Source of the DNA: Onchocerca volvulus
Taxonomy: Eukaryota > Nematoda > Chromadorea > Rhabditida > Onchocercidae
DNA length: 64,000 bases
Reading direction: 5' to 3'
Assembly: GCA_000499405.2 (NCBI GenBank)
Contig: HG738137.1
Coordinates: 15,525,873-15,589,872 of the forward strand
The notes beneath the pieces were generated by a model. The model was not told the origin of the DNA and made no database searches. It was given only the letters and a program-made list of their open reading frames with translations. How positions within the stretch are numbered: the first letter of the stretch is position 1; each line of letters begins with the position of its first letter. This document shows positions 46,101 to 48,697 of the stretch, one piece after another. The position numbers and the translations under genes were made by a program.

Positions 46101-48697
46101 AGGTTTGACTTGATAGTTCTTAATTTTTCCCTGGTATTTGTTATTTTAAGGTTAGTGAGTGGGAAGATAAAATCAGTAGCTTATTGGAACAATGGTTGCT
46201 TCAGTTGGAAAGTCTCGTTAAGAAATTGAATCAACATTTCAGCTCCTTCTTTGAAAATATGGGATGTACTGGGGAAGTTTGTCTTCAAAAACCTGATGAT
46301 AAGGTGATTATTTCGAAATTTTTAACCATGAAGAAGTTTTCGAAGTATTTCCCCACTTCTGTTTGATTTGTCAGTGAATTTTCATTATAATGTTTGATGA
46401 GGGAATTCTTCCAATTTTTTGAAGAAAATACAAGTTAATTTTCATTTTGACTATTTTTTTTTTTCTAATATTAACTTGCAGCTTGATATTTCGAAGTATG
46501 GTATTACAGTAACTGCCAAATTTCGTGAAGATGAAAGGCTTCGGCAGTTAACACATCAGGTGAATTTTTAATTCTATAACTTCTGTTTATTTCTCATTCT
46601 TTTTTTGATTTCCTTTCATTTTCATGAGATCTTTTTTAAACTTCTAGAATAATAGAAAGCTTAGCTCTTATATATTTAGATTCCTGAATAATCTTACATT
46701 ATAGACACAGTCAGGTGGTGAACGTAGTGTTACTACAATGTTATATATCTTAGCACTGCAAAAGCTAACGGTAGTACCCTTTCGCTGTGTCGATGAAATC
46801 AATCAAGGTATTCAAATTTGTCGGTGATTTCTAACAGATCGAAGAAATCAGTTATGGATTGAGAGGAATGGGATAGATAATATGTGTATAATAAATTTTC
46901 TGATCAGATTTTCTCATAGGTTTTTTCTTGTATTTGCTTTCGCTTTGAATTGGGATAGAGATGAAAGGTAGCTGTGTTATAATTCAACTATAACTTATAC
47001 TATTTCCTTCAAAATCATTTTAATCCATCCAATTAGGCTCTATATATTTCAGCCACACAGCAGTTTTTCCTCATATGCTGAAATAAAATTTCGGGATATG
47101 GATATTATGATTCGGAATTATTCGGATATTATTTGTCCATAAGATGTTAATATGGGATCTGTCATATTTAATTGGAAAATAGAATAGGAGTATTAATAGT
47201 AAAATGTGTAATGAACGTGTTATGTAAAGAATAGACTGGTCATGTTTGTTTTGCGAAATAATATTCCAAATTAGATGATTGGTGAGAACTGATATTTTTT
47301 TTTTTCAGGAATGGATCCAAAAAATGAGAAGATTGTATTCAATATGATTGTAGATATGCTTTCCAAAGATACTGACTTAGCGAAAACACAATATTTTATG
47401 TAAATTTTTTCAAGTATGAACTAAAAGAATGCCATTTTCATATTGAGAAAAAGAAGTTTTTAGATAGTCATACGTTATCCAGTGTTATTGGATAGCAATT
47501 TTGATGAACAGATTTGCTAGGTTCAGTTTTCATAGTTATAAAATTTTCAGACTGACTCCTAAACTTGTACCTGATCTCAAATTTAATGAAGAGACGAAAA
47601 TTCATTGCATTTATAGTGGTGCGAAGCTTGCTAAACGTAAAGTAAGTATAAATCTTATTATTTCAGTAATTTTTTTTTTTTGAAGTTTTCTTTTTTTGGT
47701 AAATTAAAAATGCCTTTTTACAAGAGGTAGATTATAAAAACAGTATAAAACAATTTAGTGATTTCAGTGGAAGACTTTGGTAAATTTTTCTCCGTTACTT
47801 CATCAGAGGGGAAAAATATCATAGTTGTTGGGCTTGGTAAGAGAGGCGAATGGGACGAAAATAAAGAATTAAATATTAGTGGCAAGATATATTGTGAATT
47901 AAGCAAATTAAAAATTAAGCAAGCGGTGATTTCAATTGAAGGTTTCCAATAAAATTGAATGTTTAGAGAACGAAAAATATAGAACCGAGATCACATCATG
48001 ATATACAAAATTTTTTAAACCATTTCTTGCTTTAAAGCTTCTATAAGGAAGACTTTATTTTTAACCGCGTTTCATATAAATTAAGATATGATATGCACCA
48101 GAGTGAAATTCTTTTTTTGAATAGATATTGAAATACTTGTATGGAAAATAATCATAAGCTTAAATTTATATCTTTCCAAATCTAAAAACCATCTTATTTT
48201 CTTATTCATCCATGATTTAATTCCTTAGGATATTGCAATTGAAATATTTCCTTAAAACAAGGCATTTCTAAGCATTATTATATATTCATTAGTTATTAGT
48301 AGCAATATTGACCATCAGTGAAAAATGAGATTTTGTATTTCATTAAGCTGTGATGGTTGCTTCATGTTTCTAAGGAGCTTGTTAAAACTAGCATTGAAAA
48401 TGATTTACAGCAAAAGAAGTTACATACATTTAAAAAAAAAAAAAAAAAAAAAAAAATGGAGATATTGTGGGAAAAAACTAAAGGAACTAAAAACTTTAAG
48501 ATTATATGTAGAAAATGATATGAAGAAAATTCTCTAATAAAAGAAACTGTCGTTGAATATTAATTAGAGAATGACGATGTAAATGGAATGTTTTAATCTT
48601 TCAAATAAAATTTGCTAATCAGCTGCTTTTATGTTCATCATTTTGGTTTCAGAATTGGAGTGTTGCGGAATTTCTTGATAGTATCCGCAATCGGTAA
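37135..48697 (+). CDS. smc-5: SMC5, structural maintenance of chromosomes 5
   Basis: SMC5 pairs with SMC6 in the SMC5/6 DNA-repair and chromosome-segregation complex. Thirty exons join without a stop to 1,065 residues, the usual family length: 37135-37223, 37549-37616, 37772-37898, 38073-38208, 38823-38912, 38998-39080, 39170-39296, 39577-39651, 39953-40039, 40344-40412, 40691-40831, 41284-41401, 41531-41688, 42082-42240, 42747-42872, 43099-43203, 43417-43584, 43720-43797, 43983-44050, 44276-44396, 44732-44857, 44966-45103, 45514-45618, 45786-45860, 46151-46303, 46482-46559, 46705-46807, 47309-47399, 47551-47641, 48653-48697. It starts with [16 protein letters not shown]; Walker A GPNGTGKST (48-56) is split by intron 2. 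Coiled coils flank a hinge (about 435-620) containing [17 protein letters not shown]. The signature QSGGERSV (958-965) has Q in place of L, as usual for SMC5, and Walker B is [13 protein letters not shown] (981-993). The stop overlaps a perfect donor (CGGTAAGT), so an extra 3' exon is possible. Confidence 0.95.
43824..43871. repeat. poly(T) run of 48 nt in smc-5 intron
   Basis: Pure T tract ending about 110 bp before the exon at 43983. It is too far upstream to be the polypyrimidine tract of that acceptor. Confidence 0.9.
47749..47952 (+). pseudogene. Bacterial leucine aminopeptidase (PepA, M17) N-terminal fragment, Wolbachia-like
   Basis: An open frame between two stops inside the last smc-5 intron translates to [20 protein letters not shown], then [35 protein letters not shown] and ISIEG before a stop. 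The order [16 protein letters not shown]-like ISGK, then an amphipathic helix and a beta strand, is that of the non-catalytic N-terminal domain of bacterial PepA. The catalytic M17 domain is absent. It is not in phase as an smc-5 exon with visible splice sites, and smc-5 reads cleanly without it. I take it as a nuclear Wolbachia transfer. PepA similarity is by recognition of the pattern; the donor species is inference. Confidence 0.7.

Follow-up and report, generated by a model that had tools for sequence, protein, structure and literature searches.

The last intron of smc-5 in the filarial worm Onchocerca volvulus holds an open reading frame that resembles the N-terminal domain of a bacterial leucine aminopeptidase (PepA). 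This raises the question of where the stretch comes from, whether it has any function and by which route it reached a worm chromosome. The window analysed is a stretch of 64,000 nucleotides, positions 15,525,873-15,589,872 of contig C2 (28,345,163 bases); the genome searched is the corresponding assembly of 94,684,704 bases in 115 contigs. The intron occupies window positions 47642-48652 on the + strand (1011 nt, GTAAGT...TTTCAG, phase 0, delimited from the sequence). It lies between the penultimate exon (47552-47641, + strand, 5' edge approximate), assigned from the sequence and from the match of the joined translation to SMC5, and the last coding exon of 14 codons plus stop (48653-48697, + strand), assigned from the sequence and the joined translation. 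As the intron is in phase 0, the smc-5 exons read through without it, in agreement with the initial annotation. Joined together, the C-terminal exons align with SMC5 proteins of solved structure at a best E of 3e-25. With the Pfam SMC_N profile they score 31.5 bits (E 1.5e-7), short of its cut-off of 40. Elsewhere in the window, an open frame of 139 codons (17709-18128) has a TMC domain (PF07810, E 2.9e-24) and is a piece of a worm TMC-like channel gene.

Window positions 47716-47943 on the + strand, about 228 bp beginning some 75 nt 3' of the donor site, are Wolbachia pepA DNA. They align by blastn to the genome of wOo, the symbiont of Onchocerca ochengi, with 90.0% identity over 230 columns (18 mismatches, 3 gap openings) and to that of the heartworm symbiont wDi with 85.7%. 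Six further relatives give 80.4-82.8%, five of them over about 200 bases and wHow over just 78; E-values to Wolbachia DNA are near 1e-81. The insert corresponds to nt 95-321, residues 32-107, of the 487-codon wOo pepA (L001:2851-4314), whose sense strand runs along the + strand of the window. It is the sole match of the whole window to the 957,990-bp wOo chromosome (E <= 1e-3, 8,000 bases masked), and the reversed window, used as control in the same search, gives zero matches. At E <= 1e-3 no further Wolbachia DNA is found in the last intron of smc-5; among the matches listed for the insert flanks in a very loose search (E up to 10) there are only weak ones, as in a control intron. Flanked on both sides by worm sequence inside the smc-5 intron of contig C2, this DNA is a nuclear Wolbachia transfer (NUWT), as had been proposed when the frame was annotated.

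The left edge of the Wolbachia DNA lies about 33 bases upstream of the interval originally delimited (47749-47952), and the exact junctions are putative. The first 26 bases or so align only with gaps, which makes the 5' edge less certain. This is why the whole-length alignment counts 26 mismatches in 227 positions where BLAST has 18 and 3 gap openings, and the figures for age and frame given below are therefore restricted to 47773-47943. At the protein level, residues 14-64 of the 67-codon frame match part of Pfam PF02789 (Peptidase_M17_N; profile positions 45-95 of 129, E 2e-5, 24.9 bits for a cut-off of 23.4). The match to NCBIfam NF002075 (leucyl aminopeptidase, E 4.7e-10) stays far under the full-length cut-off, as expected for a fragment. 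In a genome collection comprising only bacteria and archaea, 202 stretches fit the word pattern of the frame and 8 of them encode relatives, six labelled Wolbachia and two labelled Rickettsiales MAG; wOo and wDi come on top with 88% amino acid identity. None of the 5 matches of the frame in the PDB is an M17 protein, all being repeat-protein and other noise. A protein search with the 67-residue frame yielded one candidate and none scored; it carries little weight, full-length PepA having been excluded there by length.

The open frame at 47749-47952 does have 67 codons plus a stop, as annotated, although only 57 of these codons are in the PepA frame. The register of PepA is kept over 47773-47943 (+ strand, residues 51-107 of the N-terminal domain), as defined by codon phase against wOo and by PF02789. 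The frame is shifted by an extra A at 47771 (+ strand), which none of the 8 aligned bacterial relatives has. The first 8 codons (47749-47772, + strand) are Wolbachia DNA read out of the PepA register, judged by codon phase against wOo, and the final 2 codons come after the point where the Wolbachia match stops. The open frame contains no in-frame ATG. Both the catalytic domain and a full-length frame with a start codon are absent: PF02789 is the only domain found and the similarity ends after residue 107 of 487, so that the N-terminal character recognised initially is borne out. The insert makes no PepA domain.

The window has 109 stop-free runs of at least 67 codons among 9,496, and the antisense frame over the insert is even longer (90 codons); wOo pepA likewise has an antisense frame, of 144 codons. 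By parsimony, 6 changes within the 171-nt register fall on the fragment, 3 synonymous and 3 non-synonymous, and 5 on wOo since the two separated. In two sets of 20,000 simulations, the 57-codon register stays open after 6 random substitutions in 68% of runs with uniform and 70% with biased substitution; the simulations model substitutions only and no insertions or deletions. The synonymous share of 3 in 6 is somewhat above the 20-23% expected without selection, the changes being too few for a test. That the frame is open indicates neither function nor youth, and of the two explanations first offered for its persistence, chance preservation and a recent transfer, the former fits the simulations. 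From its sequence, the insert most likely has no function.

Other pepA fragments exist in the genome. A search with full PepA finds 6 places in the O. volvulus assembly and no intact pepA. Four of them carry wOo-like DNA: the smc-5 insert at C2:15,573,588-15,573,815, C3:13719981, C5:6515345 and C4:5120423. The remaining two are likely exons of the worm's own leucine aminopeptidase (LAP), aligned only to residues 295-355 in the catalytic part; these loci (L028, L031) have no wOo DNA at E <= 1e-4. We considered whether the C5 copy could be a duplicate of the smc-5 insert, which is unlikely, the two loci sharing nothing outside the insert (E <= 1e-3). In the 118 columns that both copies cover, there are 20 differences between C2 and C5, 11 between C2 and wOo, and 18 between C5 and wOo. 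One derived base is common to both fragments; C2 has 3 of its own and C5 has 9. A counterpoint is the extra base present in the same alignment column of both, A in C2 and T in C5. We read the two as separate transfers on the strength of these alignments, with a reservation over the common extra-base column.

Within the 171-site register the insert differs from wOo at 11 positions, and wOo from wDi at 18. The insert and wOo agree against wDi at 13 sites, the insert and wDi against wOo at 5. In a tree of 8 of the 10 aligned rows, from which the very divergent wHow and the C5 copy were left out, the insert is nested within Wolbachia diversity. It groups with wOo with a bootstrap of 96 of 100 (200 replicates), in a supergroup C supported at 100. 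Earlier trees that included wHow suffered from its long branch, which drew it to wOo. If rates are equal, the insert and wOo split at about 60% of the wOo-wDi depth, suggesting that the transfer belongs to the stem of Onchocerca. Placement of the insert with wDi or outside both is not rejected by the AU test (p 0.149 and 0.147), and dating to the stem is therefore tentative. Other inserts of the same genome are recent, with 99% identity to wOo over 101 bases, 99% over 322, 97% over 260 and 257, and 100% over 200. Against these values of 97-100%, a divergence of about 10% from wOo does not fit the recent transfer first suggested. The smc-5 insert is an old, decaying NUWT.

These data bear on three other readings of the locus. 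The frame could be a remnant of a worm LAP or a chance resemblance, since worms own M17 aminopeptidases. It has 80-90% DNA identity to Wolbachia over 200 bases with E near 1e-81, the reversed window gives no match, and the likely worm LAP exons match other PepA residues and carry no wOo DNA. A LAP origin is rejected on these grounds, and LAP remnant and chance resemblance alike, whose probability we put close to nil, can already be considered refuted by the alignments. The outcome named at annotation as fatal to a Wolbachia origin, with eukaryotic LAP as the top match or no match at all, is not the one observed. The insert could also provide a conditional exon of smc-5: TTTCAG (47762-47767) and GTAAGA (47837-47842), within 47762-47842 on the + strand, are acceptor-like and donor-like motifs in the right order. 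They would splice in the 69 nt between them, run into a stop after 18 codons in the smc-5 frame and truncate the protein. GTAAGA is also present in wOo, while the G of the acceptor is missing from all 8 bacterial relatives and from the C5 copy, so that it arose in the insert. The spliced frame, however, differs from that of PepA, and such motifs are common, with 48 TTTCAG and 42 GTAAG on the + strand of the window; sequence and alignment thus point most likely to chance, and we regard an exon as very improbable.

Joining of reads from the living symbiont (wOv) into a worm chromosome is an equally improbable origin of the insert, even though the assembly was built from short reads and an optical map and the worm carries living Wolbachia (text of PMC5310847). 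The window is free of runs of N. The symbionts wOv and wOo are nearly identical, so reads of a living Onchocerca symbiont should be near wOo, whereas the insert is frameshifted and 10% away from it. We privilege by far, as very probably correct, the explanation that the insert is a nuclear transfer of a pepA shard of about 228 bp from a supergroup C Wolbachia on the Onchocerca side, captured in an ancestor of O. volvulus and left to neutral decay.

NUWTs are abundant in this genome. Three wOo stretches of 6,171, 20,000 and 20,000 bases have 15, at least 42 and at least 42 matches in it, the last two values being lower bounds that rest on 40 of 64 and 40 of 68 scored candidates and count in host-duplicated copies. 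Matches cover 33% and 39% of the bases of the two 20-kb stretches. Provided that these stretches are representative, the density of at least 2.1 per kb of wOo would correspond to about 2,050 matches for the entire wOo chromosome. The published counts, as given in the texts of the two surveys, are 531 putative nuwts at E <= 1e-15 (PMC5310847) and, later, 818 matches in 653 regions (PMC12693587), and rest on stricter cut-offs than the present matches. Ten distinct NUWT loci were compared to both symbionts: eight are closer to wOo than to wDi, one is equally close (L020, 84.6%) and one is slightly closer to wDi. The latter (L019:1501-1688; wDi 75.9%, wOo 74.5%) scores best with wOc (79.4%), labelled supergroup-F-type in PMC12693587, and possibly stems from another supergroup. 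The same two Wolbachia pieces recur at similar spacing in C2:15649363-15650819, about 60 kb beyond the window, and in C24:28840-30894, which suggests duplication of a NUWT chain by the host. A 200-bp piece of wOo, positions 4784-4984 of the query L040, recurs on three small contigs (C20:29051, C22:19263, C86:4985) with 86-90% identity. Two COX1-like sequences with stops (C2:13793275-13793826 and C2:21015440-21015907) are probably nuclear copies of mitochondrial DNA.

At most of the NUWT loci examined, neighbouring pieces come from distant parts of the Wolbachia chromosome. The best 10 of the 15 matches to the 6,171-base wOo stretch, all at distinct places, were extended by about 1.5 kb of flanking DNA and compared with the complete wOo chromosome at E <= 1e-5. 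Seven loci on other contigs of the same assembly (L010, L011, L013, L014, L016, L019, L020) are chains of 2-7 pieces and three have a single piece. The smc-5 insert belongs to the three, and unlinked donor pieces in number two or more are seen only in the chains. Together the ten loci comprise 32 pieces, 51-458 bp long with a median of 150 bp and with identities of 68-99%. Sequence that is contiguous in wOo is not found at any of their 22 joins, and 21 bring together segments that are separated by over 20 kb in wOo; at the remaining one, in L020, they are 3.9 kb apart, in order and on the same strand, an arrangement that a deletion could also yield. As 56 of the 64 piece ends lie inside wOo ORFs of at least 100 codons, rearranged genes in the donor cannot account for most joins. 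At seven joins the pieces overlap by 1-7 bp and at one by 23; at one they abut, and at 13 they are separated by 3-155 bp; the 1-7 bp overlaps are no measure of microhomology because BLAST ends overlap by 1-2 bases by chance. In L014, the segment 1501-1601 is 99% identical to wOo and its six chain neighbours are 89-92% identical, which may reflect an insertion at a later time, a slowly evolving gene end or gene conversion.

The composition of the chains suggests end-joining of shattered Wolbachia DNA. They could alternatively result from repeated insertion at one spot or from later shuffling by host duplication. We give about even chances to the idea that many Onchocerca NUWTs are stitched arrays, made of unlinked Wolbachia pieces of about 50-450 bp that the germ line joined before or during insertion. 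In that case the smc-5 insert would represent the same process with a single shard. If true, this would point to a DNA route with lysed germ-line Wolbachia as source, against the RNA route proposed for Brugia. In the literature searched, the main texts of mainly open-access papers, we found no account of Onchocerca NUWT chains.

For the smc-5 insert itself, a single piece for which the chain evidence comes from other loci, an RNA route would imply reverse transcription of a Wolbachia transcript and its insertion by a retrotransposon. This route is favoured for Brugia nuwts in the text of PMC3849323 and was considered for O. flexuosa by McNulty et al. (PMC2882956), whose text describes pao remnants and poly-A tracts near inserts. 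ORF bases are indeed modestly over-represented in pieces relative to their source stretches (60.5% v 50.2% and 75.7% v 67.6%), which the slower divergence of coding DNA can also produce. In 25 of 84 pieces at least 40 bases fall outside ORFs, and one piece spans ORFs on opposite strands. A 25-nt A-run (48432-48456) is found in the same intron, but it does not adjoin the insert, being 488 nt downstream, and the window has 8 A/T runs of at least 20, this one included; no adjoining poly-A is seen. A target-site duplication of 14 or more bases is absent as well: the insert ends share 5-6 bases, a chance-level figure that 392, 399 and 140 out of 1000 random pairs reach, depending on which of three 5' ends is assumed. 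In an old insert, erosion could mask poly-A and duplication alike. The evidence on the route thus leans towards DNA without settling the matter, and we hold the RNA route to be unlikely for this insert. According to the transfer of DNA that we prefer, the pepA shard from a supergroup C Wolbachia would have entered the germ line as loose DNA. It was probably end-joined while a broken germ-line chromosome of an O. volvulus ancestor was being repaired, the insertion into the last intron of smc-5 taking place on the Onchocerca stem. Spliced out with the intron, the shard would then have decayed without selection.

Taken alone, the smc-5 insert is of little importance, one decayed NUWT among very many. 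It illustrates how a scrap of symbiont gene can resemble a living reading frame, and its conserved flanking exons make it a handy presence/absence marker across Onchocerca and Dirofilaria with one primer pair. The chains at other loci bear on the open question of the form, RNA or broken DNA, in which Wolbachia sequence gets into filarial chromosomes.

Comparison with other systems places these observations. A model for the chaining of shards is provided by the germ-line arrays of C. elegans, in which linear fragments are end-joined (text of PMC9071541); these arise from laboratory injection and not from symbiont DNA, so that the link would be one of analogy. Complex numts and nupts of plants assemble several organelle fragments with end-joining signatures, according to the text of PMC6215612, like the chains at seven of our ten loci; their donor is an organelle, and the smc-5 insert differs in being simple and of one piece. 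The nuwts of Brugia malayi described in the text of PMC3849323 are mostly 100-200 bp, the scale of the smc-5 insert, and include one adjacent pair from different parts of the Wolbachia genome, to be compared with the present chains. They are rarer in introns and UTRs than chance would give, and they differ in their supergroup D donor and in the RNA route favoured by the authors. The closest likeness is to the NUWTs reported for O. volvulus itself, in the same genome, of supergroup C, short and fragmentary. In the texts of PMC5310847 and PMC12693587, those of Onchocerca derived from supergroup C average 434 bp and nuwt frames are fragmented in 98% of 576 regions. The text searched in these two papers makes no mention of the smc-5 intron or of pepA; the match of the insert would pass the cut-off of the 2016 survey (E <= 1e-15, PMC5310847), and it is probably in the published NUWT tables already. 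The smc-5 insert is an ordinary NUWT of the kind catalogued by the hundreds in O. volvulus.
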